From Fidelibacterota bacterium (GTDB lineage: Bacteria > Pseudomonadota > Alphaproteobacteria > Rhodospirillales > Rhodospirillaceae): a DNA stretch of 64,000 bases. A program made the position numbers and the translations under genes. Location of the stretch: positions 20,671 through 84,670 of the forward strand of contig CANJPG010000004.1 in assembly GCA_947476065.1 (NCBI GenBank). The letters are read 5' to 3'. Each line of letters starts with the position of its first letter. The stretch's first letter is position 1. Below, piece after piece: positions 16,745 through 44,903 of this stretch. The notes below the pieces were generated by a model, which was not told where the DNA came from, made no database searches, and saw nothing but the letters and a program-made list of their open reading frames with translations.

Positions 16745-16769
16745 TCGAGAGCCGCCGGGAGGGCCCGGC

Positions 16770-28641: not shown

Positions 28642-31047
28642 TTGGGGGACGTCTATAAGATCGCGATCGTCGGGTCAGGTCCCGGCGGTCTCAGCGCCGC
28701 AGCTCATGCTGCGAAGCTTGGGGTCAGGCACGTTCTACTCGAACGCACCGACCACCTCTCGGACACCATCTACAAGTACCAGAAAGGCAAGTACGTCATG
28801 TCGACGCCCGACGTGCTGCCGCTGCGCGCCGACGTCACTTTCAATGCCGGCAAGCGCGAAACCATCCTCGACGCCTGGAACAAACAAATCGCCGACGTGA
28901 AGGCCAACGTTCGCTACAACGCTGACGTCACCGCCGTGAACAAGGACGGCGAGATTTTTAAAATAAAGCTGGCCGACGGCGCCGTGATCGAAGCCGAGGC
29001 CGTCGTGTTGGCCATCGGGCTGCAGGGCAATTTGAACAAGCTGCGCTGCGAAGGCGCCGGCCTGCCGCTGGTGCAATATCAGCTGGACGATCCCGACGAA
29101 TACGAGGCCGAGACAATCGTCGTTATCGGCGCGGGCGACGCCGGCATCGAGAATGCCATCGCGCTGTCGAAGCAGAACACCGTCATCATGGTGAACCGCT
29201 CGAGCGAATTCGCCCGCATCAAGCAGGGCAACCTCTCGCTGATCACCAACGCCATCGAGAAGGGCGATATCCAGTGCTACTTCAGCGCCGAGACCCATAA
29301 GATCGAGGAGAAAGCGATCATCCTACAGACCGCCGACGGCCAGGCCCGCGTGGCCTGCGACCGCATCATCGCGCGCCTCGGCGCCGCTGCGCCGCGCAAG
29401 TTTGTGGAGTCCTGCGGCATCAAATTTCCCAACGAGGATCGCACCTCATTGCCCGAGGTCAGTCCGACCTATGAATCCAATGTTCCGGGCCTTTACATCA
29501 TCGGCGCCCTCGGAGGGTATCCGCTGATCAAACAGGCGATCAACCAGGGTTTTGAGGTTGTCGAGTACATCCTCGGCAACCCTATTGCGCCCGCCGATCA
29601 GCCGCTGATAGAACGCAAGTTCGCCGGCCTGAAGCCGGCGACCGTCGAGGAGGTGCTGGCGGAAATCCGCGACGTCATTCCGGTCTGGCACAGCCTGAAC
29701 CCCTTGCAGCTGCGCGAAGCCATGCTGGATTCGGAAATGCATGTCCTGAAGACGGGTGCGACGGTCTTCAAACGCAACGACTACACCAGCTCGTTCTTCA
29801 CCGTGCTGCGCGGCACCGTCGGCATTCAGATCGATGCCAACGACCCGAAAAAGATGATCACACTGGGTCCGGGCGCTTTCTTCGGCGAAATGGGCCTGAT
29901 CTCTGGCCGCAGACGTAGCGCCACCGTGGTCACCGTCGGCGACTGCGTGCTGTTCGAAACGCCGCGCCGCACGATGCTGAAGTTGATCGGCTCGGTCGAC
30001 AGCCTGCGCCGCACCCTGGACCAGGTCGCTATCATGCGCCAGGTGCAGACTCACCTCGCACCCGGTGTTCCGGTCGCCGATCTGATGGAACTGGTGGAGA
30101 CCGCCGAGATCCAAAAGTTCAAGGCCGGCGATGTCATCTTTGCCCAGGGCGACAAGGGCGACCACATGCACCTGATCCGTTCGGGCTCGTGCACTGTATC
30201 GATGCGCGTCGGCGGCAAGGATGTGGTGCTCAGCTACGTGCCGTCGGGCAACTATATCGGCGAGATGGCGCTGCTTTCGGATATGCCGCGCTCGGCAACC
30301 GTCAAGGCTGCCCATGCCACCGAGACGGTCTGCATCAAAGGGGAATCCTTCAAAACTCTGCTCGAACGCAACGCGCCCCTAAAGGCCAGCGTCGAAGCCA
30401 AATTCCGCCAGCGCATCAAAGCCAACGAACAGATGCAGAAGCAGCCCGAAGCGGGCAGCATCATCGAGTTCCTGATTGCCCAAGGCGTCGGCGAAGGCAC
30501 CGACGTGCTGCTGATCGATGAATCGCTCTGCGTCCATTGCGACAATTGCGAAAAAGCCTGCGCCGAAACCCACGGCGGCATTTCGCGCCTCGACCGAGAG
30601 GCCGGCCCCACCTTCGCCACACTGCATGTGCCCACGTCCTGCCGTCACTGCGAGCATCCGCACTGCATGTCCGATTGCCCGCCCAACGCCATTCACCGCA
30701 CGCCCGGCGGCGAGGTCTATATCGACGACAGCTGCATCGGCTGCGGCAACTGTGAAAGAAACTGTCCCTACAAGGTCATCCAGCTGGCCTACCCGCCCGA
30801 TGAGAAGTTCAACATCTTCTCCTGGCTGCTGTTCGGCAAAGGGCCGGCGCCTGGGGAGGCCATGTCCTACAAAAGCAAGAACGGCCGCGACGACCACGGC
30901 CACAGCGAGAAGACCAAACGCGCCGTGAAGTGCGATATGTGCAAGGGCATTCCCGGCGGCGCCTCCTGCGTGCGCGCCTGTCCCACGGGTGCCGCGCTGC
31001 GCGTGAGCCCGGAAGAATTCATGTCCGTCACCACGCTGTCGGGCTAG
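28642..31047 (+). CDS. FAD/NAD(P) oxidoreductase - 2x cNMP-binding - 4x[4Fe-4S] fusion protein
   Basis: A protein of 801 residues starting at TTG 28642. Domains: residues 5-330 are a thioredoxin-reductase/YpdA-like flavoprotein with FAD motif VGSGPGGLSAA and NAD(P) motif VVIGAGDAGIENA, lacking the CxxC of thioredoxin reductases at the usual place. About 345-460 is cNMP-binding domain 1 (FFGEMGLISGRRRSATVV) and about 475-595 cNMP domain 2 (YIGEMALLSDMPRSATV). From 625 to the end comes a DmsB/NrfC/HybA-type ferredoxin with four Cys groups (CVHCDNCEKAC, CRHCEHPHCMSDC, CIGCGNCERNC, CDMCKGIPGGASCVRAC). No signal peptide, so cytoplasmic. It heads a seven-gene cytochrome operon and probably passes electrons from NAD(P)H via FAD and Fe-S to the cytochrome-b-like protein 13 bp downstream, with cNMP as a possible allosteric switch. 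Confidence 0.9.
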   Translation: MGDVYKIAIVGSGPGGLSAAAHAAKLGVRHVLLERTDHLSDTIYKYQKGKYVMSTPDVLPLRADVTFNAGKRETILDAWNKQIADVKANVRYNADVTAVNKDGEIFKIKLADGAVIEAEAVVLAIGLQGNLNKLRCEGAGLPLVQYQLDDPDEYEAETIVVIGAGDAGIENAIALSKQNTVIMVNRSSEFARIKQGNLSLITNAIEKGDIQCYFSAETHKIEEKAIILQTADGQARVACDRIIARLGAAAPRKFVESCGIKFPNEDRTSLPEVSPTYESNVPGLYIIGALGGYPLIKQAINQGFEVVEYILGNPIAPADQPLIERKFAGLKPATVEEVLAEIRDVIPVWHSLNPLQLREAMLDSEMHVLKTGATVFKRNDYTSSFFTVLRGTVGIQIDANDPKKMITLGPGAFFGEMGLISGRRRSATVVTVGDCVLFETPRRTMLKLIGSVDSLRRTLDQVAIMRQVQTHLAPGVPVADLMELVETAEIQKFKAGDVIFAQGDKGDHMHLIRSGSCTVSMRVGGKDVVLSYVPSGNYIGEMALLSDMPRSATVKAAHATETVCIKGESFKTLLERNAPLKASVEAKFRQRIKANEQMQKQPEAGSIIEFLIAQGVGEGTDVLLIDESLCVHCDNCEKACAETHGGISRLDREAGPTFATLHVPTSCRHCEHPHCMSDCPPNAIHRTPGGEVYIDDSCIGCGNCERNCPYKVIQLAYPPDEKFNIFSWLLFGKGPAPGEAMSYKSKNGRDDHGHSEKTKRAVKCDMCKGIPGGASCVRACPTGAALRVSPEEFMSVTTLSG

Positions 31048-31060
31048 GGGGATCAGGCCC

Positions 31061-31882
31061 ATGCATGAGTCAATCCTGATCTACCGCAAGCACCGCTACT
31101 TGAAGTGGGCGCTCGCCTTGGCGGCCGTCAGCGCCGTGATCTACCTGATCGATCGGCCGCTGGGCGCACCCAACGGCGGCACCTGGCTCGGCTATGCGCT
31201 GGGAACCGCCGCTGGCGGCCTGATGCTATGGTTGGCGTGGTTCGGCGTGCGCAAGCGGCGCTACGGCGTCGGCAAAGTCCCGCTGGAGGATTGGCTGTCG
31301 GCGCACATCTATCTCGGCACCGCGCTGGCCCTCATCGCCACGCTGCATTCGGGTTTCCAGCTCGGGCTCAACATCCATTCGGTGCTCTATGTCACGATGA
31401 TGATCACCATCATCAGCGGCATGGTCGGGCTTTATTTTTACGTCAGCTATCCGCGCCTGCTGACCGAGAACCGGCGCGGGCTATCGACCGAAGTAATGCT
31501 GGGCCAGATCGCCGAGCTTGACCGCGATGTGCGCCAGATCGCCATGGCCACGGATGACGCCACCAATGCCATGGCGCTGAAATCGACGCAGGACACCATC
31601 CTCGGCGGCACCGCGCTTCAACAGTTGCGCGGCTTCGATGAACATTGCCCGACCACGCTGGCCCGCCAGTTTGTCGAGAGCAGCGTCTCCAGCCAGCACG
31701 ACGCCCAGCGGCGCCAGCTGTTGACCCGCCTTATCCGCAAGGAGGATTTGCTCAAACGTATCCGCCGCGACGTGCAGCTGCGCTGCCTGTTGAAGGTTTG
31801 GCTTTACGTGCATGTGCCCTTTTCCATCGCCGCCTTGGCCGCACTCGTCACCCATGTGGTGACGGTGTTTTATTATTGGTGA
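31061..31882 (+). CDS. Cytochrome b-like membrane protein
   Basis: An inner-membrane protein of 273 residues. Membrane helices at about 14-31, 44-62, 80-98, 103-124 and 251-271, with a soluble helical insert of about 125 residues between the fourth and fifth. Candidate heme-ligand His residues occur within or near helices (LSAHIYLGT, ATLHSGFQ, LYVHVPFS, LVTHVVTV), compatible with a di-heme ferric-reductase or b561-like core. I do not recognise a named family. It sits between the Fe-S fusion protein and the decaheme FHA cytochrome (4 bp away), the right position to carry electrons across the inner membrane. Confidence 0.75.
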   Translation: MHESILIYRKHRYLKWALALAAVSAVIYLIDRPLGAPNGGTWLGYALGTAAGGLMLWLAWFGVRKRRYGVGKVPLEDWLSAHIYLGTALALIATLHSGFQLGLNIHSVLYVTMMITIISGMVGLYFYVSYPRLLTENRRGLSTEVMLGQIAELDRDVRQIAMATDDATNAMALKSTQDTILGGTALQQLRGFDEHCPTTLARQFVESSVSSQHDAQRRQLLTRLIRKEDLLKRIRRDVQLRCLLKVWLYVHVPFSIAALAALVTHVVTVFYYW

Positions 31883-31886
31883 GCCC

Positions 31887-33677
31887 GTGCGCACGCTGAT
31901 ACGCCACGTCACACGCAAAAGCCGCGGCGGCACCGCCGTCCGCGATGAGGTTGCCGAAGGCGAGAAGATTCTCGCCGGCCGCGGCAACGACTGCGCCATC
32001 CATCTGCCCGACCCGCGCGTCATGCTGCATCACGCCGACCTGACGATACGCGACGGCAAGCTTTATGTTTTGGCCGCACCCGGCGCCGACCTGCGCGTGG
32101 GTGACAGCCTCACGCAAATCTCGAAACTCGACGTCGGCAGCAAAATCCGCATCGGCCCTTACGAAATAGAATTTGCCGAGAAGGGCGGAGACTTCGATTT
32201 CACCCTGCACGTCGAACTGGTTCTGGCTCTGGGCGACGACCTTGAAAAGCTGGTGGCGCGGTCGCGCATACACATCGACCGCATAGGCCTGTCGATGCGC
32301 GCGTGGGTATGGCTGTTGGCGAGCGTCGTCCTCATTGGGACTTTTGTAGCGCCTTTCGTATTCAACCTTCTCGTCGGCCCGCCGCCGGATAAATTATCGT
32401 TGGCGCCCGGAAAGCAGCATTATGTCGCGGCGCCAACCAAAGTCTGGACCAGCGGCTCGATCTCGGCGGCCCACAAGTTCTTTGGCGATTCCTGCGAGAG
32501 CTGCCACGAAAAGCCCTTTGTGCCGGTGCGCGACCGGGCCTGCCTGACCTGTCACGCCGGCGTGCAGAACCATGCGCAGCCGGCCATCTTCCCCTTCGCC
32601 GATCTTTCGGAGCGCACCTGCCAAAGCTGTCACAAGGAACATCAGGGCAATGTAACCATCGTGTTGGGCGATGAGGGCTTCTGCGCCGACTGCCACAAGG
32701 ACATGGGCGCCAGGACAACACGCAGTACACTCGCCAATGCCTCCGATTTTGGCCTTCACCATCCCGAGTTCCGGCCGACCATGGTGAAGGATCCAGCGCT
32801 GCACAGCATGGACCGCAGCCGCAGTATCGGCGGCACGCCGCCGCCGGTTGAAAATTCCGGTTTGAAGTTCCCTCACGACAAGCACCTGCGCACTACCGGC
32901 GTCAAAGACCCGGGGCGCGGCGTCGTCACCCTGCAATGCGCCGATTGCCATACGCCGAACGAGACCGGCGAGACCATGCAGGCGGTGTCGTTCGAACAAA
33001 ATTGCCATAGCTGTCATATCCTGCGCTTCGACACCTTCGTGCCCGACCGTGAGCTGGCCCACGGCAAACCTGATGAGGTTTTCAAGCAAGTCCGCGATGT
33101 TTACGACGCTCTCGCCATGCGCGGCGGTTATGAGGAGCCGACGGCGCCTGCGCTCCTGCGGCGCAAACCCGGCGAGCCGCTCAGCCCGGTCGAAAAGGTG
33201 ACCGCGACAAATTGGGCGGCGTCCAAAACTGCCGACGTCTTCAATGGCCGCTTCGGACGGGGGCTGTGTGAGGAATGTCACCGCACGTTTGATACCAATA
33301 CAGGCAAGCCCACGCCCACCGCATTGCCTGAACCCAAACCGTGGAGCATCGAGCCGCCCACCGTTACGACCCTGTGGATGCCCAAGGCCTATTTCACTCA
33401 CGCGCGCCACGCCGACGTGCCCTGCGCTGAATGTCACGCCGCTAAAGCTTCGACATCGTCCACCGACGTCTTGATTCCCGGCATCGCCATCTGCCAGTCC
33501 TGTCACGGCGGCGAAAAAGCCGCCGACCGCGTGCCGTCCACCTGCGTGTCCTGCCACCGCTTCCACCGCAAGGATCTGGAGCCGATGCGCCCCGAAAAAG
33601 CCGATGCCGCGCCTCACATCCTGCCGCGAGAGCGAACCTTCGCCGGCGGAACTTTGCCCATGTGGGAGAAGCCATGA
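31887..33677 (+). CDS. FHA domain - TM - decaheme cytochrome c
   Basis: A protein of 596 residues from GTG 31887. Residues 1-115 form an FHA domain (ILAGRGNDCAIHLPDPRV, HHADLTIRDGKLYVLAAPG, KIRIGPYEIEF); the canonical Ser before the His of the phosphopeptide loop is changed (MLHHA for xSRxHA). One membrane helix follows at about 138-162. Residues 203-557 hold ten CXXCH motifs (CESCH, CLTCH, CQSCH, CADCH twice, CHSCH, CEECH, CAECH, CQSCH, CVSCH) of cytochrome c3/c7 character. Topology would place FHA in the cytoplasm and hemes in the periplasm. FHA domains bind phosphothreonine, so phosphorylation could tether or gate this electron carrier. An FHA-multiheme fusion is very unusual. Overlaps the next gene by 4 bp (ATGA). 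Confidence 0.93.
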   Translation: MRTLIRHVTRKSRGGTAVRDEVAEGEKILAGRGNDCAIHLPDPRVMLHHADLTIRDGKLYVLAAPGADLRVGDSLTQISKLDVGSKIRIGPYEIEFAEKGGDFDFTLHVELVLALGDDLEKLVARSRIHIDRIGLSMRAWVWLLASVVLIGTFVAPFVFNLLVGPPPDKLSLAPGKQHYVAAPTKVWTSGSISAAHKFFGDSCESCHEKPFVPVRDRACLTCHAGVQNHAQPAIFPFADLSERTCQSCHKEHQGNVTIVLGDEGFCADCHKDMGARTTRSTLANASDFGLHHPEFRPTMVKDPALHSMDRSRSIGGTPPPVENSGLKFPHDKHLRTTGVKDPGRGVVTLQCADCHTPNETGETMQAVSFEQNCHSCHILRFDTFVPDRELAHGKPDEVFKQVRDVYDALAMRGGYEEPTAPALLRRKPGEPLSPVEKVTATNWAASKTADVFNGRFGRGLCEECHRTFDTNTGKPTPTALPEPKPWSIEPPTVTTLWMPKAYFTHARHADVPCAECHAAKASTSSTDVLIPGIAICQSCHGGEKAADRVPSTCVSCHRFHRKDLEPMRPEKADAAPHILPRERTFAGGTLPMWEKP

Positions 33678-34078
33678 AAAGGCTTCTGTTTCTCGGCATT
33701 TTGATGCTTGCTACGCCGGTCTCGGCGGCGACGCTGTCGCCGGACGACACCGATCTTGGCCGCATCACTGCTGCAAAGGCAGCCGACGGACTGGTCATCG
33801 CGGTGGACGCCGATGACAAAATGCCGCTGGCGACGCACGTCGTTGCGCGCTTTCAAAACAATCAGCCGCTCATGCGCGGACGTGACGGCCTTTGGGCGGT
33901 GTGGGACGGTGATCCGGCGCATCTCGACGACGTTGGCGTGATCCCGGCGGAAGGTAAATTCAGCTTCGCCATTTTCGATCGTTTGCCCGCGGGTCTTTTC
34001 TTCCCCGTGAGTTTTACGGTCATTGTGCAGGGCGCAACGGGACTGACGTCCGGCACGCTTGTGGTGGATGGTCCATGA
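33674..34078 (+). CDS. Small exported protein of the cytochrome operon
   Basis: A protein of 134 residues starting at ATG 33674 in an ATGA overlap with the previous stop; a clear signal peptide (MKRLLFLGILMLATPVSAA). The mature part of about 115 residues is predicted beta-rich (GLVIAVDADDKMPLATHVVARF, GLWAVWDGD, KFSFAIFDRLPAGLFFPVSFTVIV). No Cys remains, so it binds no c-type heme. I do not recognise a family; a periplasmic accessory or chaperone for the cytochromes or the barrel is a guess from position. Overlaps the next gene by ATGA at 34075. Confidence 0.75.
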   Translation: MKRLLFLGILMLATPVSAATLSPDDTDLGRITAAKAADGLVIAVDADDKMPLATHVVARFQNNQPLMRGRDGLWAVWDGDPAHLDDVGVIPAEGKFSFAIFDRLPAGLFFPVSFTVIVQGATGLTSGTLVVDGP

Positions 34079-35943
34079 GACTCATCACCGCCCTATGGTT
34101 TGTGCTGGCGGTGGCTTGCGACGCCCGGGCGCAAACGGCGCCCAGCCTGACCGTCGCCGATGTCGACAAAATTATCGGCCAAGCTCTCGGTGAAGCTGCG
34201 GCGCGCGGTACAAATAATGGCGCCATCGCCGTGGTCGACCGCGTCGGCAACGTGCTGGGTGTCTATGCGCCGAACCCCGCGAATATTCCGCTGCTGACCA
34301 TCACGTCAGGCCGCGGCATACCGGCGAACAACGGCCTCGAGGCTGTGAACATCCTGCCCGCGACCTACGGCGCCTTGGCCAAGGCAATCACCGGCGCATA
34401 CCTGTCGTCGTCGGGCAACGCCTTCACTACCCGCACCGCCAGCCAGATCGTGCAGGAACATTTTAACCCCGGCGAAAAAAACACGCCCAGCGGGCCGTTG
34501 TTCGGTGTGCAATTCAGCCAGCTGCCGTGCTCCGACCTCGCACGCTTTGGTGAAGCCCCGGGTATCGGCCCGCGCCGCTCGCCGCTGGGCCTTTCGGCCG
34601 ACCCTGGCGGTGTACCGCTGTATAAAGACGGCCAGGTCGTGGGCGGCGTCGGCGTGCTGTTCGACGGCGTCTATGGGCTTGATCTCAAGATCGAGGACTA
34701 CGATCAGAACCTCGACGAATTGATTGCCGTCGCGGCGCAGCAGGGCTTCGAGCCGCCCGCCGACATCGCCAGCCGCATCACCGCCGACGGCAAATTCCTC
34801 ACTTACGCCGATGTCGACAAACGCGACCTTAAGTCAACGGCCGCCGTGGCGGTCAACCCCGCGAACTACGTCGCCGTCGCCGGTTATACGCCGGCAGGGC
34901 GCCGCGCCGGCGCGGCCTTTGGCACAGTTGGCGCCGGCCTACGCCCCGAAGGCCGCGTCGAATATCCGGCAGTGGACGCCTGGGTGCTCGACGACGGGTT
35001 GGGTAACAACCGCTATGCGCCGCGCAATGGGCTTGCGCCAGCCGCAGCCAATGGCGGGCTTGCCGCCGCTGAAGTGCGCACGATTGTCTCCGAAGCGCTG
35101 AAGGTCGCCTTCGCCGCCCGCGCGCAGATCCGCAGGCCTCTGGGCAGTTATGCCCAAGTCACCGTATCGGTGGTCGATGCCGAGTCCAATATTCTCGCCG
35201 TCGCGCGCACTCCCGATGCGCCGGTCTTCGGAACCGACGTCTCGCTGCAGAAAGCGCGCACCGCCGTCTTTGCTTCACGGCCGACGACCACCTCCGAACT
35301 GCGCGCCGTGCCTGCCGTGACGTTGATCCCAGGCACGCTCTCGACACCGCCCCTCGCGTCCTACGTCGATGCCGCCCAGGCCTTGTTGGGGCCGACGGCG
35401 TTCGCGGACGGCGTGGCTTTCAGCGACCGCGCCATAGGCCTCCTCGCCCGCCCCTTCTATCCCGACGGCATCGAGAAGCAGCCCCCCGGCCCGTTGAGCA
35501 AACCCTACGCGGTGTGGAGCCCCTTCAACGACGGCCTGCAGCTCGATCTCGTGCTGCCCGATATCGTCGCGCGCCTCGACGGCAGCCCGCCGCCGCCGCA
35601 AGGCTGCACCGCCCTGCCCCGTTCAGCGGCTGCCGGGCCCGGGCCGGGTCCGACGCGGCTTGCCAACGGCTTGCAGATTTTCCCCGGCGGCGTGCCGATC
35701 TATCGCGGCAGCACGCTCATTGGCGGCGTTGGGGTTTCGGGTGACGGCGTCGACCAGGACGACATGATCTCGTTCCTGGGCCTCCACAATGCCGGCCTCG
35801 CGCTGAACTCAGGCGTTGGCCACGCGCCGAAGGAACGCCGTGCCGACACATTGGATGCCGCAGGCTTAAATCCGCGTTACGTGCAGTGTCCCTTTACACC
35901 GTTCAATACATCGCGGGAGCAGAACGTATGCTCCGGCAAATAA
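34075..35943 (+). CDS. Exported protein with two GlcG/HbpS-like heme-binding domains
   Basis: A protein of 622 residues with signal peptide MRLITALWFVLAVACDARAQ. Two copies of the GlcG/HbpS fold (DUF336): the first about residues 25-240 (LTVADVDKIIGQALGEAA, GAIAVVDRVGNVLGVY, GVPLYKDGQVVGGVGV), the second about 325-600 (AAEVRTIVSEALKVAFAARAQI, VTVSVVDAESNILAVART, GVPIYRGSTLIGGVGVSGDGVDQDD). HbpS-type proteins bind heme in the envelope; binding residues are not certain here. The usual domain is about 140 residues, so both copies carry large insertions. In this operon it could buffer or deliver heme for about twenty c-type heme sites. Its end overlaps the start of the barrel gene by 16 bp. Confidence 0.82.
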   Translation: MRLITALWFVLAVACDARAQTAPSLTVADVDKIIGQALGEAAARGTNNGAIAVVDRVGNVLGVYAPNPANIPLLTITSGRGIPANNGLEAVNILPATYGALAKAITGAYLSSSGNAFTTRTASQIVQEHFNPGEKNTPSGPLFGVQFSQLPCSDLARFGEAPGIGPRRSPLGLSADPGGVPLYKDGQVVGGVGVLFDGVYGLDLKIEDYDQNLDELIAVAAQQGFEPPADIASRITADGKFLTYADVDKRDLKSTAAVAVNPANYVAVAGYTPAGRRAGAAFGTVGAGLRPEGRVEYPAVDAWVLDDGLGNNRYAPRNGLAPAAANGGLAAAEVRTIVSEALKVAFAARAQIRRPLGSYAQVTVSVVDAESNILAVARTPDAPVFGTDVSLQKARTAVFASRPTTTSELRAVPAVTLIPGTLSTPPLASYVDAAQALLGPTAFADGVAFSDRAIGLLARPFYPDGIEKQPPGPLSKPYAVWSPFNDGLQLDLVLPDIVARLDGSPPPPQGCTALPRSAAAGPGPGPTRLANGLQIFPGGVPIYRGSTLIGGVGVSGDGVDQDDMISFLGLHNAGLALNSGVGHAPKERRADTLDAAGLNPRYVQCPFTPFNTSREQNVCSGK

Positions 35944-37667
35944 CCGCGGCGCTTGTTCTTGCCATATGCGCGGGAAACGCCGTCCAGGCCCAGGAGGAGC
36001 CGCCGCGCCGGCGTCCCGGCGCCGAGCAGGCTCCCGACCTTCCGCCCATCGACCCCACTGCGGTTTCACCGCCGCTGCGCGATGTGCCGCGAGAGAGCCT
36101 GCCGATCCCCGACCGCTGGCGGCTCGTCGATGCAGTCGGCGTGAAGACCAACTGGTGGGACCCCTATAACCAGAACGCCCTGAAGGCCGACCGTCCGCTG
36201 TTCTACGACTGGTTCATCAATGTCGGCGTGGTTTCTGATACGGTTTATGAACTGCGCGGCTTGCCGGTCCCCGTAGGGCCTCAAGGCGCAGGACCCAGCA
36301 GCGTCGATATCTTCGGCCAGATCAGCCAGAACATTTTCGTGCAAAGTCTGATCCCATCACTGTCGCTCATCAAGGGCGACACCGCGTTTCGCCCGCCGGA
36401 CTATGAAATTCGCCTGACGCCGGTGATCAATTACAACCGTGTCGCGGTCAAAGAAAACCGCCTGCTGAATATCAACCCCCTGGCCAGAAATGTCCGCGAC
36501 GACGCTCATATCGCGTTGCAGGAGGCGTTCCTCGACTACCACCTGCGCAACGTCTCTGACCGGTTCGATTTTGACTCCCTGCGGGTCGGCATTCAGCCGG
36601 TCAATCTCGATTTCCGCGGCTTTCTGTTTCTTGATCAGCAGCTCGGCGTGCGGTTCTTCGGCAACCGCGACAATAACCACATCCAATACAATCTCGGCTG
36701 GATGCGCCGGCTGGAGAAGGACACCAACTCGGGCCTTAACGACCTCGGCAAACGCCTCCGCGATGACGACGTCTTCTTCGCCAATCTCTATTGGCAGGAC
36801 CTGCTGGTCGCGGGCTTCACCACTCAGTTTGTCGTCGCCTATAACCGCAACCGTGAAGGCAACGACGCACCCTTTTATAATGAAAACGGATTCCTCGAGC
36901 GGCCGGCGTCGCTCGGGTACGAACGCCCGCTCGACTATGACGTGGTCTATCTCGGCCTTAATGGCGATGGTCATCTTGGCCCGGTAAATCTCACGCACTC
37001 ATTCTACGGCGCCTTCGGCAACATCAGCGCCAACCCGTTCACGTCGCGCACGCGCGCGGAGCCTGCGAAAATCCGCGCTTTCTTCGGCGCTGTTGAACCT
37101 TCCTTGGACTTCGATTGGATCCGCCTGCGCGGCCAAGCCCTTTATGCCTCCGGCGACGGTGATGCCTTCGACAACACCGCCGGCGGCTTCGATGCCATTT
37201 TCGAGAACCCGCAATTCGCCGGGGCCGAGACCAGTTATTGGATCCGCCAGCCGGTACCTCTGATCGGCGGCGGCGGCGTGGCGCTGTCGGCGCGCAACGG
37301 GGTGCTCAACAGCCTGCGGACTTCCAAGGAACAGGGGCAACCCAACTTCGTCAGCCCCGGCACGATGCTTCTGGGCGCCGGCGCGGACTTCGACTTGCTG
37401 CCGGAACTGCGGGTATCCGCTAACGTCGATCATCTATGGTTCGCCGAGAAGGCCGTGGTCGAAGTGCTGCGCAACCAGCCGCTGGAATCAAAATCCATTG
37501 GTTGGGATACGTCGCTCTCGGCGATCTATCGGCCCACCTTTATTCAGAACGTCGCCTTCCGCGCCTCGGGTGCGACGCTGTTCGGTGGTAAAGCTTTCGA
37601 TGCGTTGTTTAATACGGACGGCAAGACGTTCTACTCAGTGCTGCTCAACCTGATCCTGACCTATTGA
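35928..37667 (+). CDS. Outer-membrane beta-barrel of the cytochrome operon
   Basis: A protein of 579 residues from ATG 35928, chosen because it opens a good signal peptide (MLRQITAALVLAICAGNAVQ); an in-frame start at 35886 would bury it. A Pro-rich periplasmic segment (about 25-60) precedes repeated amphipathic beta strands with aromatic girdles (FDFDSLRVGIQPVNLDFRGF, FFANLYWQDLLVAGFTTQF, LGLNGDGHLGPVNLTHSFYG) and ends with VLLNLILTY. No CXXCH and no plug domain. Lying next to two decaheme cytochromes, it is a candidate sheath for electron transfer through the outer membrane, as MtrB/PioB do, though I see no specific sequence match to those. Confidence 0.78.
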   Translation: MLRQITAALVLAICAGNAVQAQEEPPRRRPGAEQAPDLPPIDPTAVSPPLRDVPRESLPIPDRWRLVDAVGVKTNWWDPYNQNALKADRPLFYDWFINVGVVSDTVYELRGLPVPVGPQGAGPSSVDIFGQISQNIFVQSLIPSLSLIKGDTAFRPPDYEIRLTPVINYNRVAVKENRLLNINPLARNVRDDAHIALQEAFLDYHLRNVSDRFDFDSLRVGIQPVNLDFRGFLFLDQQLGVRFFGNRDNNHIQYNLGWMRRLEKDTNSGLNDLGKRLRDDDVFFANLYWQDLLVAGFTTQFVVAYNRNREGNDAPFYNENGFLERPASLGYERPLDYDVVYLGLNGDGHLGPVNLTHSFYGAFGNISANPFTSRTRAEPAKIRAFFGAVEPSLDFDWIRLRGQALYASGDGDAFDNTAGGFDAIFENPQFAGAETSYWIRQPVPLIGGGGVALSARNGVLNSLRTSKEQGQPNFVSPGTMLLGAGADFDLLPELRVSANVDHLWFAEKAVVEVLRNQPLESKSIGWDTSLSAIYRPTFIQNVAFRASGATLFGGKAFDALFNTDGKTFYSVLLNLILTY

Positions 37668-37671
37668 CCAG

Positions 37672-40600
37672 ATGATCAAGAAACTCGCATTAGCGCTAGG
37701 ATTGGCGGTGCTGGCTGGAGCCAGTGCCCACGCCGCTGGCCATGGTGAAACCGCGCGGCACATCACCTATCCATTTTACCCCGCTTCGCCGCGCCAGCAA
37801 AGTCAGGAGGAAGCCGATGCCAAAAGCGCCGGTTGCCTGTCCTGCCACAGCGCCACCGATATGCCGAGTATGCATGCCAATCCGGCGATCATTCTCGGTT
37901 GCACCGACTGCCACGGCGGCGATCCGAAAGTCGCCTTACCCGCAAGCACAGCCAAAGACACGCATGGCTACCGCGCGACCCTCGACAAAGCGCATGTACA
38001 GCCGCTGTTCCCCGAGAGCTGGCACTATCCGAAAAGCGCCAATCCGGAACGCAGCTACACGCTGCTCAACCGCGAGAGCCCGGAATTCGTCCGTTTCATC
38101 AATCCGTCCGACTACCGCGTGGCGCGCGAAAGCTGTGGCGCCTGCCACATGGAGGAAATCCAGGCGACCGAGCGCAGCCTGATGTCCACAGGTGCCATGC
38201 TGTGGGGCGGGGCCACCTATAACAACGGAATCTTGCCCTTCAAGAATTATATTCTGGGCGAGGCCTACACGCGTGAAGGCGAAAGCGCCTTCATTAAGAG
38301 CCCCGGCAGGATCGAGCCGTGGATGACGCAGAAGCGCGGCATCCTGCCTGGCCTCTATCCCCTGCCCTCGTGGGAAACCACGCCGCCCTCCGACGTCTTC
38401 CGCGTCTTTGAACGCGGCGGGCGCAACATCGGCACACAGTTTCCGGAAATCGGTCTTCCCAACATTCAGACCTTGCTTGGCAACATTTCGCGGCTGGAGG
38501 AACCGGGCCGCCCCGACATCCGGCAAAGCAACCGCGGGCCCGGCACAGGTTTGCGCATCGCCGTGCCCAGCATCAATATCCACAAGTCGCGGCTGAACGA
38601 TCCCTACACCTGGTTCATCGGCACCAACGACCAGCCAGGCGACTATAGGCACTCAGGCTGCGCATCGTGCCACGTGATCTACGCCAACGACCGCGACAAG
38701 GACCATAGCGGTCCCTACGCCCAGTTCGGCAACATGGGCATGACTCAGACCAAGGACCCAACGATCCCGAAGAACGAGCCCGGCCATCCGCTCACCCACG
38801 GCTTCACGCGTGCCATCCCCACCAGCCAGTGCATGGTTTGTCACATGCACCAGCCCAACATCTTCCTGAACTCGATGCTGGGCTACACCATGTGGGACTA
38901 CGAGTCCGATGCGCCAGCCATGTGGCCCGAGAAGCAGCGATATCCCTCGGCCGAGGAGATGCACCAGACCCTCGAGCGCAATCCCGAGGAGGCCGCCGTG
39001 CGCGGCAAATGGGCGGACCTCGCGTTCCTCAAGGACGTGAGCAAACTGAACCCGACACTGAAGGACACGCAATTCGCCGACTACCACGGCCACGGCTGGA
39101 ACTTCCGCGCCATCTTCAAGCGCGACCGCAAAGGCAACCTGCTCGACAAAACGGGCCAGAAGGTCGCCAACGACGATCCGCACAAATTCGACAAAGCCGT
39201 GCATATGAAGTCGATTCACGTCGAACTGGGAATGCAGTGCGTCGATTGCCATTTCGGCCAAGACGCCCACGGCAACGGCTATATCCAAGGCGAAGTCGCC
39301 AATGCCATCGAGATCCGCTGCGTCGATTGTCACGGCGATGCCGATAAGTACCCCACTTTGCGTACGTCCGGTCCGGCGGCGCGTGCAGGCGGTTCCGACC
39401 TTTCCACGCTACGTGTTCAAGATGGCCGCAAGCGGTTTGAATGGAAAGGCACCGAGTGCGACCGTCCGGTCACGCAAAACCGCGACTGCAAGCTGTTCCA
39501 GCGCTCGGCGGTCGATCCCAAACTCGAATGGGACGTCAGCCTCGTCAAGGACAGCATCAACCCCGACAACGCCCGCTACAACGCCAAGGCCGCGCGGGCG
39601 AAACTGATGAGCGCCAACGTCAATCAGAAGTGGGGTCCGGGTGTCGCGCCCGAGAACCGCGCCCACAAAAGCAGCGAGATGGAGTGCTACACCTGCCATC
39701 TGTCGTGGACCACCGCCTGCGCCGGCTGCCATCTGCCGATCCAGGCCAACTGGAAAACCGAACGCCACCACTTCGAAGGCGGCGAGAGCCGCAACTTCGC
39801 GACTTACAACCCGCAGGTGGCGCGCGACGACATGTTCCAGCTGGGCATCCACCAGACCACCAAGGGCAACACCATCGCCCCCGTGCGCTCGACGTCGGCG
39901 CTAATCCTGTCATCGACCAACATTAACCGCGAAAAACTCTACATCCAGCAGCCACCCATCGCGGCCTCGGGCTATTCAAGCCAGGCCTTCGCGCCCCACT
40001 ACCCCCACACCGAACGCAAGGAAGAGACCAAGACCTGCACCGATTGCCATGTCTCGCAGGCCAAGGACAACAATGCCATCATGGCGCAGCTCCTGTTGCA
40101 GGGAACCAATTTCGTCAATTTCGTCGGCTACAACGCCTGGGTCGGCGGAAAGGGCGGCATCGAAGCGGTGAACGTCACCGAGTGGGATGAACCGCAGGCG
40201 GTCATCGGCAGCTACCTGCAGCGTTACGCCTACCCCGACTGGTACAGGCAGCACCAAGACCGCGGCCGCAAGCTGAAGGAAAGCCACACCCACAGCGGCG
40301 GCGAAGCCAACTGCCTGCAGCTGCGCGGCGAATACCTGTTCGTCGCCGAAGGCACCGACGGTATGCAGGCCTACGATGTCGCCTCTATCGCCAACAAGGG
40401 GGTCTCCCAGCGCATCATCACCGCCCCCTTCTCGCCGCTTGGCCACGATACGCGCGTCGCCAGCAAGAACGCCACCTGCGTGGCGCTGCCCACCAATCAG
40501 CCGATCGCGCCGACGCGCATGAATGAAAGCGAAGAGAAAAAGAAGCTGATGCAGGAGGACAATCAGGAACAGCCGATCCACCCGCTGTATTCCTACGCCT

Positions 40601-41511
40601 TCGTCACCGATGCGGTGGAAGGCCTGATTGCCATCAACGTCGATACCCTGGCCGACGGCGAGCCGCGCAATAACTTCCTGAAACGCGCCATGGCCTGGAA
40701 TGAGGGCGGCGTGCTCACCGGCGCCCGCCATATCACCATCGCCGGCACCATTTTTTACATCGCGACAGATGCCGGCATTGTAATGCTCGACATGGACGAT
40801 CCGCTGAAACCCAAGCTCATCACCACTCTGCCCTTCGACGGCGCCCGAGCCACCGCCGTGCAGTTCCGCTACCTCTACGTCACCGATAAAAATGGCCTGC
40901 ACACCGTAGATGTCACCGATCCGCGCAAGCCTGTGAGCGTGATGGGCGCCGACATTGCTTTGGGTGATGCGCACAAAATCTATCTGGCCCGCACATTTGC
41001 CTATGTCGCCGCCGGCAAGGACGGACTGGCCATCGTCGATATTGAAAAATCCGAGAAACCGAAGCTCTTCCAGATGTTCACCGGCGATGGGAAGATCACG
41101 GATGCGCGTGACGTCATCGTCGGCACGACCAACGCATCGCTGTTTGCCTACGTCGCCGATGGCGCGAACGGCCTGAAGGTCGTGCAGCTGACCTCACCCG
41201 AGCGCCAGCCCAACTTCTACGGCTTCAGCCCCGACCCCAACCCCGAGGTCATCGCCTGGTGGCCGACAAGGTGGCCGGCCTTGGCGTTGTCGAAGGGCCT
41301 GGACCGCGACCGCGCCGTCGACGAAACCGGCCACCAGATCGCCGTCTTCGGGCGCCTGGGCTCACGCCCGATGACGCTGACGGAACAGCAGATCCTTTAT
41401 ATGAAGGACGGCAAAGTCTGGGGCGTGACGGACGACGTGACCATGGCCGACTTCGTGCGCGGCGAAGTCAAACGCAAATTGGAATTCGAACGGCCCGCGG
41501 CGAGGGAGTGA
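37672..41511 (+). CDS. Decaheme cytochrome c with C-terminal LVIVD-repeat domain
   Basis: An exported protein of 1279 residues (signal MIKKLALALGLAVLAGASAHA). Ten CXXCH sites lie between residues 55 and 793: CLSCH, CTDCH, CGACH, CASCH, CMVCH, CVDCH twice, CYTCH, CAGCH, CTDCH. From about 870 to 1230 there are LVIVD-type beta-propeller repeats (LFVAEGTDGMQAYDV, IATDAGIVMLDMDDPLKPKL, LYVTDKNGLHTVDVTDPRKPV, AYVAAGKDGLAIVDIEKSEKPKL). LVIVD repeats occur in large surface proteins of bacteria and archaea. No lipobox or C-terminal anchor is seen, so it is periplasmic or held at the surface by the barrel. Last gene of the operon; it abuts the convergent 78-residue gene with zero spacing. Confidence 0.93.
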   Translation: MIKKLALALGLAVLAGASAHAAGHGETARHITYPFYPASPRQQSQEEADAKSAGCLSCHSATDMPSMHANPAIILGCTDCHGGDPKVALPASTAKDTHGYRATLDKAHVQPLFPESWHYPKSANPERSYTLLNRESPEFVRFINPSDYRVARESCGACHMEEIQATERSLMSTGAMLWGGATYNNGILPFKNYILGEAYTREGESAFIKSPGRIEPWMTQKRGILPGLYPLPSWETTPPSDVFRVFERGGRNIGTQFPEIGLPNIQTLLGNISRLEEPGRPDIRQSNRGPGTGLRIAVPSINIHKSRLNDPYTWFIGTNDQPGDYRHSGCASCHVIYANDRDKDHSGPYAQFGNMGMTQTKDPTIPKNEPGHPLTHGFTRAIPTSQCMVCHMHQPNIFLNSMLGYTMWDYESDAPAMWPEKQRYPSAEEMHQTLERNPEEAAVRGKWADLAFLKDVSKLNPTLKDTQFADYHGHGWNFRAIFKRDRKGNLLDKTGQKVANDDPHKFDKAVHMKSIHVELGMQCVDCHFGQDAHGNGYIQGEVANAIEIRCVDCHGDADKYPTLRTSGPAARAGGSDLSTLRVQDGRKRFEWKGTECDRPVTQNRDCKLFQRSAVDPKLEWDVSLVKDSINPDNARYNAKAARAKLMSANVNQKWGPGVAPENRAHKSSEMECYTCHLSWTTACAGCHLPIQANWKTERHHFEGGESRNFATYNPQVARDDMFQLGIHQTTKGNTIAPVRSTSALILSSTNINREKLYIQQPPIAASGYSSQAFAPHYPHTERKEETKTCTDCHVSQAKDNNAIMAQLLLQGTNFVNFVGYNAWVGGKGGIEAVNVTEWDEPQAVIGSYLQRYAYPDWYRQHQDRGRKLKESHTHSGGEANCLQLRGEYLFVAEGTDGMQAYDVASIANKGVSQRIITAPFSPLGHDTRVASKNATCVALPTNQPIAPTRMNESEEKKKLMQEDNQEQPIHPLYSYAFVTDAVEGLIAINVDTLADGEPRNNFLKRAMAWNEGGVLTGARHITIAGTIFYIATDAGIVMLDMDDPLKPKLITTLPFDGARATAVQFRYLYVTDKNGLHTVDVTDPRKPVSVMGADIALGDAHKIYLARTFAYVAAGKDGLAIVDIEKSEKPKLFQMFTGDGKITDARDVIVGTTNASLFAYVADGANGLKVVQLTSPERQPNFYGFSPDPNPEVIAWWPTRWPALALSKGLDRDRAVDETGHQIAVFGRLGSRPMTLTEQQILYMKDGKVWGVTDDVTMADFVRGEVKRKLEFERPAARE

Positions 41512-41748
41512 CTATAGCGGTGCGCTGGCAACACCCGCGGCCGTCAACCGGCCTTCGATGGTGATCCAGCCGCGTTCCTGGGCGTGCACCAGGGCGGGCC
41601 GCAAGTCGGACTGTCTCCAGGGCAGATTGTTGAAGTGCTGGATGATCGGGTTGGCATCAATCGCCTGATTAGCCTGCAGGCGCAACTCGCGCACAGCGAT
41701 GCGCAGGATTTCCTTGGCGGCGTCTTCGAGGCTGGGTCTGTTGTCCAT
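41512..41748 (-). CDS. Small conserved-looking hypothetical protein
   Basis: A protein of 78 residues (MDNRPSLEDAAKEILRIAV...), acidic helical N-half and a C-half LRPALVHAQERGWITIEGRLTAAG reminiscent of a winged-helix wing region (helix then beta hairpin). No Cys, signal or membrane helix. It lies 68 bp downstream of the MHS transporter on the same strand, and its TAG touches the stop of the decaheme LVIVD gene. Family not recognised; a small DNA-binding or adaptor protein is possible. Confidence 0.6.
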   Translation of the reverse strand: MDNRPSLEDAAKEILRIAVRELRLQANQAIDANPIIQHFNNLPWRQSDLRPALVHAQERGWITIEGRLTAAGVASAPL

Positions 41749-41816
41749 AAACGGTCCTTCGCTGGACCTGGATCATAGACGAACGACGTCCGTCCGCCTA
41801 CCCAATAGCGCAGCCC

Positions 41817-43085
41817 CTATGTCTCGATACGGGAATGTTTTTTCGTGTCGGGCATGATCGCATAGATCACCAGCGACAGCGCGATGCAGGTACTGACGTA
41901 CCAATAGAACCACGGCTCGTGCCCCGAAACCTTCAGCCACAACGCCACGTATTCGGCGCTGCCGCCGAAAATCGCCACGGTCAGCGCGTACGGCAGACCC
42001 ACGCCCAGCGCGCGTACGTGGGCCGGAAACAGTTCGGCTTTGACGACCGCATTGATCGACGTGTAGCCGCTGACGGCCACAAGCCCCGCCATAATGAGAG
42101 CGAAAGCGATCCAGGTGTCCTTGGTGCCGCCAAGGGCGGTCAGCAACGGCACCGTTCCGAGCGTACCCAACACACCAAAGGCCAGCAGCAGCGGCCGCCG
42201 GCCGATACGGTCGGACAAGGCTCCCACCACCGGCTGCAGCAGCATGAACACAAACAGCGCCGCAGTGGAGATCAGCGTGGCGTCATCCTTGCTGAAACCC
42301 GATGTATTCACCATGAACTTCTGCATGTAGGTCGTATATGTGTAGAAGGCCACCGTACCGCCCAGAGTAAGGCCGAACACCGTCAGCACAGCGCGCGGAT
42401 GGCGCAGAAGTTCGCGCAGCGTTCCGCGCTCTGCCCGCTGCGAGGCGACGGTGAAGGCTTCGGTTTCGGCGATGCCCCGGCGCAGGTAGAACGCCACCAG
42501 GGCGCAGGCCGCGCCGATAAAAAACGGAATACGCCATCCCCAGGACGACAGCTGCGCCGGCGTCAGCACAAACTGCTGCAGGATGATGAGCAGCGCCAAG
42601 GCGAGCAGCTGCCCCATGATCAGCGTGACGTACTGGAAGCTGGAGTAGAAGCCGCGGTGCTTTTCCAATGCCATTTCGCTGAGGTATGTGGCGCTGGTGC
42701 CGTATTCGCCGCCCACGCTCAAGCCTTGCAGCAGCCGGGCGAGCAGAAGGATAGCCGGCGCGGCGATGCCGATCTCGGCGTATCCCGGCGTGACCGCGAT
42801 GACCAGCGAACCCAGGCACATGAAGGTCACCGACACGGTGAGTGCGGCCTTGCGGCCATGGCGATCGGCATAGAGCCCCATGAGCCAGCTGCCCGCCGGG
42901 CGGGCGAGAAAACCCACGGCAAAGATTGCGGCGGTATTCAGCAGCTGGGCGGTGAAGTCAGCGTTGGGGAAAAACACCGGCGCGAAATACAAGGACAGCG
43001 CCGAATAGATGTACCAGTCGTACCACTCCACCAGGTTGCCGATGGATCCGCCGATAATCGACTTCAGGCGGTGAAGAGGCGTCAA
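41817..43085 (-). CDS. MFS transporter, metabolite:H+ symporter (MHS) type
   Basis: A protein of 422 residues, 12 membrane helices. Start taken as TTG 43085, overlapping the TGA of the cytochrome gene (TTGA) and followed at once by LTPLHRLKSIIGGSIGNLVEWYDWYIYSA; an open frame extending to 43181 would add an Arg-rich leader that is only out-of-frame reading of the cytochrome gene. MHS features: GNLVEWYDW in TM1, GLYADRHGRKAAL in loop 2-3, RLLQGLSVGGEYGTSATYLSEMA in TM4-5 and SDRIGRRPLL. Relatives carry alpha-ketoglutarate, citrate, proline or shikimate with H+. Substrate unknown. Co-transcribed with the c554-like cytochrome, so an organic-acid electron donor is possible. Confidence 0.9.
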   Translation of the reverse strand: MTPLHRLKSIIGGSIGNLVEWYDWYIYSALSLYFAPVFFPNADFTAQLLNTAAIFAVGFLARPAGSWLMGLYADRHGRKAALTVSVTFMCLGSLVIAVTPGYAEIGIAAPAILLLARLLQGLSVGGEYGTSATYLSEMALEKHRGFYSSFQYVTLIMGQLLALALLIILQQFVLTPAQLSSWGWRIPFFIGAACALVAFYLRRGIAETEAFTVASQRAERGTLRELLRHPRAVLTVFGLTLGGTVAFYTYTTYMQKFMVNTSGFSKDDATLISTAALFVFMLLQPVVGALSDRIGRRPLLLAFGVLGTLGTVPLLTALGGTKDTWIAFALIMAGLVAVSGYTSINAVVKAELFPAHVRALGVGLPYALTVAIFGGSAEYVALWLKVSGHEPWFYWYVSTCIALSLVIYAIMPDTKKHSRIET

Positions 43086-44419
43086 CCTTCGGCCTTCGCC
43101 ACGGCGGTCTCGAGGGATTGCAGTGCGCCCAGGAATTTCTTGGGCTCGAAAGCTTCGTCCTTTTCCACGGCGTCGTAACACTTGTCGAGCACCGCCAGCA
43201 GCCCCTTGTGCTGCGCCGGCGACAACATGCGCTCGTCCTTCATGGCGTCGATGATCGCCGCCAGCGCCATGGTCGCCTGTTCGGCGGCGGCATAGTCCAC
43301 GTACTCGCCGCGCAGGCCGTGGCTGATGACCCCGGCCAGCAGGGCCTTCATGTCGGCGGCCTTGAACTCCGTAGCGGCAATGCGATTGGTCAGCGTCGCC
43401 GTAAGGGTCTTCAGCTGCTGCGCCGCGGCTAGGGTGGCGTCGTGGCCTTTCAACGATGCCTGGTGCAGGGCTTTGACGCGCGCCTTGTAGTCGGCGGCAA
43501 GAGCAGCATCCATGTGGTCCAGCAGCACGCCCATCATGATGAGGTTGGCGTCCGACAGGCGCGGGATGCCGGGACCGATGCCGGCGCTGTCGCGCGCTTC
43601 CCAGCGCACGTTGGACATGGGGTGGTGGCAGGCGTGGCAGTCGTAGAACACCAGCTCAGGGAAAATGCCGTCCTGATTACGCTTGGGATCGGTCAGGGCA
43701 TCGAGCAGGTAATCGATGGCCACGATCTCGCCCACGGCCCAGACCTTGACGTGGTCGGCGTTGACCTTGCGGTGTTTGTAGTCGTCGTCGACAACGTAGT
43801 GGGCCGGCTGCACGGCAGTGAACGTATCGAGCCCAAAGGACATGCGCGGGTGTCCTGCGCCCATAATGCGGTGCGTAATAAAGCGGTCTTTGTCGCCGAA
43901 ATGGCAGGACAGGCAGAGCTTGGCGCGGGCCACGGGCTGCTCGGTGGGGAAAAGCCCGGCTTTGACGTTCGCCGCATGATCCGACTTGCCGGAAACATGA
44001 AGGCCCAGCCAGTCGACTGCGCCGCCGTGGCAGGATTCACAGCCGACACCGTCGGAGATCTCAAAACCTTTGGCGCGGCGGTCGGGGGCGACGTTGTCGG
44101 CGTGACAGTCCAAGCAAATCTTGGCCTCAAAGGCATTGGGCAAACCGAGATTCTTGGCGATGCGTTTCGAACGCTCTGACAGCAGAGTCTTGTAAGCCTT
44201 GGCGTGCGCGTCCTTGTCCTGCCAGACAATGAATTCGTTCTGCTTGACGGTCGACCCCTTCCACGGTTCCAGCGCGCCGTGACAGCTGGAGCCGCCGCAG
44301 GACGATACGCCGAGGTGGATGGCCGGGGCGGTAAAGGGAATTTCGGACTCTGCGGCGGACGCCGATACACCAAAAGCAATGGTCAGGATGGCTGCGAAAA
44401 GATGGAAGATGCGGCGCAT
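43082..44419 (-). CDS. Multiheme cytochrome c, c554-like
   Basis: An exported protein of 445 residues with signal peptide MRRIFHLFAAILTIAFGVSASA. Heme motifs: CLDCH, CESCH, CLSCH and CHACH, plus a wider CGGSSCH (C-x4-CH) near residue 41, giving probably five hemes. The arrangement (HLGVSSCGGSSCHG, then a CLDCH, GVGCESCHGGAVDWLGLH, and a FYDCHACHHPM) resembles cytochrome c554/multiheme oxidoreductase-type proteins. The C-terminal third is helical and heme-free. It is middle gene of a minus-strand set (exported protein, cytochrome, MHS transporter) that converges on the decaheme operon. Confidence 0.88.
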   Translation of the reverse strand: MRRIFHLFAAILTIAFGVSASAAESEIPFTAPAIHLGVSSCGGSSCHGALEPWKGSTVKQNEFIVWQDKDAHAKAYKTLLSERSKRIAKNLGLPNAFEAKICLDCHADNVAPDRRAKGFEISDGVGCESCHGGAVDWLGLHVSGKSDHAANVKAGLFPTEQPVARAKLCLSCHFGDKDRFITHRIMGAGHPRMSFGLDTFTAVQPAHYVVDDDYKHRKVNADHVKVWAVGEIVAIDYLLDALTDPKRNQDGIFPELVFYDCHACHHPMSNVRWEARDSAGIGPGIPRLSDANLIMMGVLLDHMDAALAADYKARVKALHQASLKGHDATLAAAQQLKTLTATLTNRIAATEFKAADMKALLAGVISHGLRGEYVDYAAAEQATMALAAIIDAMKDERMLSPAQHKGLLAVLDKCYDAVEKDEAFEPKKFLGALQSLETAVAKAEG

Positions 44420-44429
44420 GCGGGAGAGC

Positions 44430-44903
44430 CTATCGCGGTGGCGGGAACGTCAGCGCCGCCAGCGTCAGGCTCAGCGGCTGATCGAGAATGGTAAGCGCGG
44501 ACGCGGAGCGGCTGGCGGGGTCTGCCGCCCGGGCCATCGTATAGATCAGACGCCCGAGTACACGGTCGGGGTCGGCGCCCGCGATGAACCCCTCGGCCGG
44601 CAGCAGGACAACATACGCCTCGGGCGTGCGCTGGGCCGTGATCGGGCCCTCGGCCGGAAAACCGAGACGCGCGGCAATCAGCACGGCTTCATTTACCGCC
44701 GCAGTCCAGGCCGGCGAACTGCTGGCGAGCCGCGCCAGCGTGAAGGTCAGGTTTTCGCCCAGGACGTTGAGGGCGCGGTCCGAAACGGCACCATGAGAGC
44801 GTAACGGCAAGCCCTCGGCCATGCCTGCGCCGGGCGACAGAATCGCCAACGCAACCGCGCCTATGGGCGCCCATTTCAAGTAACTGCGCGAATTCTTCGC
44901 CAT
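44430..44903 (-). CDS. Exported hypothetical protein of the c554 operon
   Basis: A protein of 157 residues from ATG 44903, supported by GGGGGA 6 bp upstream on the minus strand; the open frame to 44981 is longer but has no such site. N-terminal signal or anchor (WAPIGAVALAILSPGAGMAEG). The mature part (LPLRSHGAVSDRALNVLGENLTFTLARLASSSPAWTAAVNEAVLIAARLG) is helical with no Cys. No family recognised. Its stop is 10 bp before the cytochrome start, so it is the first gene of that operon and likely a periplasmic accessory. Confidence 0.7.
   Translation of the reverse strand: MAKNSRSYLKWAPIGAVALAILSPGAGMAEGLPLRSHGAVSDRALNVLGENLTFTLARLASSSPAWTAAVNEAVLIAARLGFPAEGPITAQRTPEAYVVLLPAEGFIAGADPDRVLGRLIYTMARAADPASRSASALTILDQPLSLTLAALTFPPPR

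Follow-up and report, generated by a model that had tools for sequence, protein, structure and literature searches.

What is the function of the tightly packed run of redox genes that lies near the middle of the 64,000-nucleotide stretch analysed here (contig CANJPG010000004.1, positions 20,671 to 84,670, of assembly GCA_947476065.1; hereafter the window)? Seven plus-strand open reading frames (ORFs), g1 to g7, occupy window positions 28642-41511 with neighbours that overlap slightly or are at most 13 bp apart, just as the original prediction described them. The whole cluster, which includes a converging pentaheme gene (g9), carries conserved binding motifs for approximately 30 redox cofactors and two conserved cyclic-nucleotide pockets. 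Among related loci, a core of g1-g2-g3, usually joined by g9, is paired with at least two outer modules. From sequence, the conserved set may be a cyclic nucleotide monophosphate (cNMP)-gated, NAD(P)H-driven system for electron export to an exchangeable outer module, a reading that we hold with about even confidence.

In this scheme, NAD(P)H in the cytoplasm would reduce the FAD of g1, and electrons would move from the FAD to four [4Fe-4S] clusters, to two b hemes of the membrane protein g2 and then to the periplasmic decaheme part of g3. The cNMP domains of g1, placed between its flavin and Fe-S parts, could open or close the electron path, and g9 may serve as a periplasmic carrier. In this genome, g7, located at or in the outer membrane, would take the electrons together with the barrel g6 and the heme-binding-like g5, and would reduce an acceptor either outside the cell or entering via the g6 barrel. 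The outward direction is suggested by potentials and charge, and cNMP gating by pocket conservation, domain position and regulatory neighbours.

The flavoprotein g1 (28642..31047, plus strand; 801 aa, without a signal peptide) combines a YpdA/Bdr-like FAD-NAD(P) domain, two cNMP-binding domains and four [4Fe-4S] motifs. Pfam matches (Pyr_redox_3, 117.5 bits; two cNMP stretches, 135.4 bits against a PF00027 cut-off of 27.5; Fer4 domains) and 16 cysteines, enough for the four clusters, confirm the makeup originally proposed from the sequence. The closest structure to the flavin domain is 7a7b (74 bits), and the best NCBIfam match is the bacillithiol disulfide reductase YpdA/Bdr, although g1 scores far under that family's cut-off (139.7 against 339.9 bits) and is joined to cNMP and Fe-S domains. 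In alignments built from the top-scoring ORF of each locus, provided that it reached 100 bits and 80% of the length of the window protein, the 16 Fe-S cysteines are kept in 65/65 sequences, and the NAD(P) loop and FAD motif are conserved, the latter lying outside the aligned part in four sequences. The Glu/Arg phosphate-binding cassette is present in the cNMP domains, with Glu in 64 and Arg in all 65 sequences at pocket A, and Glu in 59 and Arg in 64 of the 65 at pocket B.

The second gene (g2, 31061..31882, plus strand; 273 aa) encodes a predicted diheme cytochrome b, the probable heme ligand pairs being H82/H251 and H96/H265. It matches no Pfam family at E 0.01, hence neither a ferric-reductase-like transmembrane domain nor a bc-type cytochrome. 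All four histidines are invariant in 64/64 sequences; 82 and 96, and likewise 251 and 265, are 14 residues apart, the spacing found in bis-His diheme cytochromes b and in NADPH oxidases (NOX). The 251/265 pair is within a clearly hydrophobic segment, and the protein has a fifth invariant histidine, H106, along with further invariant residues. A single ORF encodes both g1 and g2 in two congeneric genomes (L106:5344-8703 and L107:3046-6420). The third gene (g3, 31887..33677, plus strand; 596 aa) encodes a degenerate FHA domain, one transmembrane stretch (the single hydrophobic stretch, at 132-167) and ten CXXCH hemes predicted to be periplasmic. Its 20 heme cysteines are present in 62/62 sequences, ten further histidines are conserved at 95-100%, and comparison with the PDB by sequence gave one weak match (E 0.014). 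The FHA-transmembrane-decaheme architecture that had been read for g3 thus stood for the hydrophobic stretch and the hemes; the FHA match (19.0 bits) is below the Pfam cut-off of 20.7 and its phosphothreonine site is lost.

At E 0.001, g7 had relatives in 7998 of 7999 scored candidates, the 120 listed all being at least 65% identical, g1 in 7434 of 7998 (sharers of only some domains counted too), and g3 in 274 of 7995. Scanning named genomes with the g7 alignment gave at least 586 confirmed places, the best 80 of which were used for a census; these loci were chosen by g7 and many are cut by contig ends. Among them, g1 was present in 62, g2 in 58, g3 in 59, g5 in 65, g6 in 77 and g9 in 57, and all seven in 35. 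Gene order varies: by title, that of the window is shared by many loci of Alphaproteobacteria and by some of Gammaproteobacteria, g1 is placed behind g9 mostly in betaproteobacterial loci, and an inversion of g1-g2-g3 to the other strand is chiefly a feature of Caulobacterales- and Sphingomonadales-type loci. Matches that span at least 80% of g7 were also present on 13 plasmid records, twelve of Sphingobium and one of Sphingopyxis. Four loci (L017, L070, L079 and L084, with titles that include Marinimicrobia, Bordetella parapertussis and Klebsiella pneumoniae) have titles that seem not to fit their genes and look like mislabelled metagenome bins.

Co-occurrence was then counted in two genome samples not chosen by these genes, 385 from the class and 398 from the phylum, both including the genome of the window. 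In the class sample (thresholds E 1e-50 for g7 and E 1e-10 for g3), g7 occurred in 29 genomes and g3 in 37, and g3 was present in 29/29 genomes with g7 (Fisher p 1e-36, kinship ignored); in the phylum sample the corresponding figures were 11, 16 and 11/11 (p 5e-18, kinship again ignored). The FHA-decaheme and LVIVD-decaheme genes had been singled out as the pair whose homologues should be sought together, and the proposed conduit was to be abandoned if they never co-occurred; since g3 is in every g7 genome of both samples, it survives on this point. The two samples give 37 distinct genomes with both genes, three of which (G000, G204 and G303) are common to both. Of the 29 pairs in the class sample, 24 are on the same contig within 5.3 kb and five on different contigs. 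In G631, G756 and G800, g3 and g7 are both present but far apart. Of 61 genomes among the nearest relatives of the source genome, ten have a g7 match (E 0.001), two of these weak and partial.

The genomes with g3 but without g7 point to a second outer end. Six of the eight such genomes in the class sample encode a pentaheme cytochrome unlike g7. Four of them (G119, G164, G179 and G437) supplied the query alignment, and there the pentaheme gene and a partner of roughly 530 residues adjoin g3 (g1 was not found in the G179 stretch). The other two, G111 and G317, were new finds by that query and have the pentaheme gene on other contigs than g1-g2-g3-g9. The partner could be a barrel, a guess from its length and position. 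Compared with g6 and g7 as four-sequence profiles, the pentaheme and its partner gave only a 22-column heme-motif match (probabilities of 0.2% and 3%), which, with so few sequences aligned, argues weakly for a lack of relation between the outer cassettes. The occurrence of the same g3 with two different cassettes suggests a g1-g2-g3 core with a swappable outer end. In one locus, two g9-like pentaheme genes (L102:11326-12747 and 16068-17519) lie on either side of the other outer cassette.

Genes for cyclic-nucleotide turnover are found beside some of these loci. Neighbouring ORFs were clustered without a target list, the members scanned were named by Pfam/NCBIfam, and 114 stretches were then searched with profiles, 108 of which had some core or regulator match. 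This gave a SpdA/CpdA-like phosphodiesterase in 10 stretches, a PP2C phosphatase in nine and a CHASE2 adenylate/guanylate cyclase in four. The phosphodiesterase is a metallophosphoesterase nearest to the SpdA and CpdA cyclic-nucleotide phosphodiesterases. Its gene comes immediately after g3 in L051, L097, L111 and L113; in L071 and L078 a cyclase gene follows g3 and the phosphodiesterase comes next (after a 2.4 kb gap in L078). Elsewhere it is at the far end of g7 (L057, L073 and L082) or 3.3 kb away from g3 (L086), and the cyclase adjoins the cluster in L041 and L063. In S. herbicidovorans, a gene annotated as metallophosphoesterase adjoins one annotated as cytochrome c3 family; near the cluster on its plasmid pMSHV (L097) there are also two genes annotated as ShlB/FhaC/HecB secretion proteins. 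Behind seven of the nine PP2C genes, whose loci bear the titles Steroidobacter, Haliea and Parahaliea, comes the gene for a protein that has two FHA domains and a hydrophobic C-terminal end and that keeps the canonical FHA motif in the sequence read; the other two PP2C loci are titled Steroidobacter and Alcanivoracaceae.

The outer part of the cluster in the window begins with g4 (33662..34078, plus strand), a small exported protein of 138 aa with a signal-peptide-like start judged by eye and with phmmer relatives in 14 loci, titled mostly as alphaproteobacterial. A double HbpS/GlcG-like secreted protein, g5 (34075..35943, plus strand), matches HbpS-like sequences twice; by a simple motif rule, 36 of 66 g5 sequences have a lipobox and a Gly/Ser tether, which the copy in the window lacks. 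The g6 gene (35928..37667, plus strand) more probably starts at the ATG at 35928 than at 35886, where the ORF opens. Its product has no Pfam family at E 0.01 and no PDB match by sequence at E 1, and its structure model (pLDDT 83) predicts an outer-membrane barrel of 18 long strands with an AlgE/OprD-type fold. The decaheme cytochrome g7 (37672..41511, plus strand; 1279 aa), predicted to be exported, has ten CXXCH motifs and a C-terminal LVIVD beta-propeller (56.2 bits) with the YVTN/LVIVD propeller fold. Its 20 heme cysteines are kept at 98-100% of 90 sequences and conservation extends well outside the heme sites (mean column identity 62% over 42 sequences). Comparison with the PDB gave no match at E 0.001 by sequence and two weak ones by profile (E 0.11 and 0.15). 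A lipobox-like motif occurs by rule in 2/90 sequences, and P0078 reads like a lipoprotein. The gene content expected for g5 to g7, a double HbpS/GlcG protein, a predicted barrel and a decaheme LVIVD protein, is all in place. On the minus strand, g9 (43082..44419) encodes a c554-like protein with four CXXCH and one C-x4-CH, and its ten cysteines are invariant in 63/63 sequences, which indicates five heme motifs.

The barrel bears on how far the cluster can be likened to established conduits. As an MtrB-type conduit, g6 was rejected: it has no PF11854 match, though the same model scores 373.7 bits elsewhere in the genome, at G000:C56:2876-4978 (L116). That MtrB is outside the 50 structure matches listed for g6 does not by itself exclude it. 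The gene at C56 encodes an MtrB/PioB-family barrel and is a second, classical-looking conduit gene; ORFs near it resemble those of DUF1329/DUF1302 proteins. The conduit of the original prediction is supported in that there is one conserved system with motifs from the flavin site to a predicted outer-membrane barrel, but with an AlgE/OprD-like g6 of 18 strands an MtrA-in-MtrB-style wire is not to be assumed.

A number of observations weigh against gated export. For the gate, all four canonical FHA residues, the Arg, Ser, His and Asn of the phosphothreonine site, are kept in 0/62 g3 sequences (Arg in 48, Ser in 6, His in 37 and Asn in 29), which weakens g3 as a phosphothreonine reader; the domain probably docks g3 to cytoplasmic partners instead. 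The proposal that signals enter on either side of the inner-membrane step is not supported as first worded, because the FHA and cNMP domains are both predicted to be on the cytoplasmic side and the FHA residues are degenerate. A profile search found no phosphodiesterase, cyclase or PP2C genes in the window, and elsewhere these neighbours come from few lineages, perhaps just a handful of independent gains. For the inner module, the hydropathy of the g2 82/96 stretch is borderline (best segment 1.34 here, family mean 1.46, above 1.4 in 41/64), and g3 of L106 and L107, both outside the 62-sequence set, has nine CXXCH instead of ten. Some loci showed neither outer cytochrome (class genomes G085, truncated within g5 by the end of its contig, and G283, which is a fragment) or only the inner module in the stretch examined (G443, whose contig ends there, G468 and G573); of the others from the phylum, G574 still includes g5 and g6 where its contig stops and G579 is a weak partial match. 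For the outer end, the heme part of g7 was modelled poorly (pLDDT 56), g6 resembles substrate or polymer channels in structure comparison, and one g7 relative of 1423 aa, P0107, has a C-terminal OmpA-type peptidoglycan-binding domain that argues for a periplasmic propeller in that protein.

The last two points would suit a reductase, in which the AlgE/OprD-like barrel would admit a substrate for reduction by g7, either at the outer membrane or in the periplasm, so that the electrons stay in the cell. The 18-strand substrate-channel fold, the conservation of g7 far past its heme sites, the OmpA-tailed relative and hosts that by title include aerobic heterotrophs are all in keeping with it; the tethered lipoboxes among g5 relatives, however, are of the kind known from surface lipoproteins such as MtrC, and ten hemes seem more than such an enzyme needs. 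We consider a reductase rather unlikely.

Electrons could also run the other way, with g7 taking them from an outside donor such as iron or a cathode and the chain reducing NAD(P)+. The MtrB/PioB-family barrel elsewhere in this genome belongs to a family used in both iron oxidation and iron reduction, and one relative (L072) is by title from a biocathode bin. Inward flow to NAD(P)+ via stacked b hemes would nevertheless oppose both the membrane potential and the redox potential, the cluster showed no recognisable ion-pump subunit, and a second-messenger gate would better suit an NAD(P)H consumer, so that uptake appears improbable. Least probable of all is a quinol-fed chain in which g2 oxidises quinol for g3 and g1 is merely a regulator or side entry: H106 and the other invariant g2 residues could form a quinone site, and the inner-membrane feeders CymA and CbcL use quinol, but the NAD(P)/FAD motifs of g1 are conserved, none of its 16 Fe-S cysteines is lost, and two genomes encode it together with g2 in a single ORF.

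How the proposed export system would relate to known ones can be seen part by part. It resembles MtrCAB, PioAB and MtoAB in having decaheme cytochromes and an outer-membrane barrel to bring electrons across the envelope, and differs in the barrel and in its entry, here a flavoprotein rather than the quinol-linked CymA. The corresponding family models score g3 and g7 low (MtrA/DmsE-family TIGR03508, g3 27.4 bits against a cut-off of 192.2, with g7 unlisted at E 0.01; OmcA/MtrC PF22113, g3 20.7 and g7 18.4 bits against 30; TIGR03507, g3 21.0 against 209.3). It would work much as a NOX of eukaryotic type that supplies a cytochrome chain through the envelope, with cytosolic NAD(P)H, FAD and signal control and with two b hemes across the membrane that are here predicted from the histidine pairs; in contrast to NOX, no Pfam family matches g2, the path has four Fe-S clusters and a decaheme in addition, and the control would be by a cyclic nucleotide.

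No description of this cluster was found in the open-access literature searched. The nearest described cluster found there is extHIJKLMNOPQS of Geobacter, a selenite/tellurite cluster of the Geobacteraceae with an inner-membrane cytochrome b, an Fe-S protein, multiheme cytochromes and an outer-membrane porin (PMC5877670), with which the plan is shared but not the entry, gate or barrel, as far as the passages covered go. In these passages, ExtO is a Rieske protein and the entry is bc-like, with no mention of a flavoprotein or of cNMP, FHA or LVIVD domains (PMC5877670). Here, g1 has instead 4Fe-4S ferredoxin-type domains and g2 is without a bc-type match, and the heme part of g7 is related only distantly to ExtM (NF040943, 76.1 bits against a cut-off of 800). 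The MHCR cluster of Thiomicrorhabdus ISEC-1 and Ca. Tenderia likewise has multiheme cytochromes, a barrel and beta-propellers, but it comprises 30 genes including Ccm/Ccs biogenesis (PMC9751133). Taken further, the cluster could be a widespread and so far unnamed proteobacterial counterpart of NADPH oxidase, composed of flavin, Fe-S, cytochrome b and cytochrome c parts, with the path gated by cyclic nucleotides within the flavoprotein and with interchangeable outer ends (propeller decaheme and AlgE-like barrel, or pentaheme and second outer protein); this we put forward tentatively, as somewhat doubtful. We know of no other system resembling extracellular electron transfer in which a second messenger directly controls the protein rather than the gene.

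Among the remaining genes of this region, the MHS-family transporter g8 (41817-43181, minus strand) overlaps g9. Of the converging operon that had been attached to the conduit, g9 belongs to the conserved core, whereas the transporter is no conserved neighbour; g8 and another candidate, g10, were dropped as parts of the system, with 4 and 2 full-length sequences, respectively, the window included. Past this operon, at 45049-45519 on the minus strand, a protein resembles by eye a stand-alone response regulator receiver. The Rfam search at the gathering threshold gave no match. The genome has three COX1-family matches, which makes oxygen respiration probable.

Most of what is known of trans-envelope electron conduits comes from anaerobes that respire metals, in which quinol feeds the conduits and control is exerted on the expression of their genes. 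Loci of the present cluster are titled as alpha-, beta- and gammaproteobacterial and include Steroidobacter, Parahaliea and Sphingobium, genera known as aerobic heterotrophs. If gated export is correct, electron export would also be among the regulated functions of ordinary aerobes, and a fast-switching one. The exchange of outer modules while the inner module stays constant would provide a natural experiment on the role of each end, and the cultured hosts make the question directly testable.

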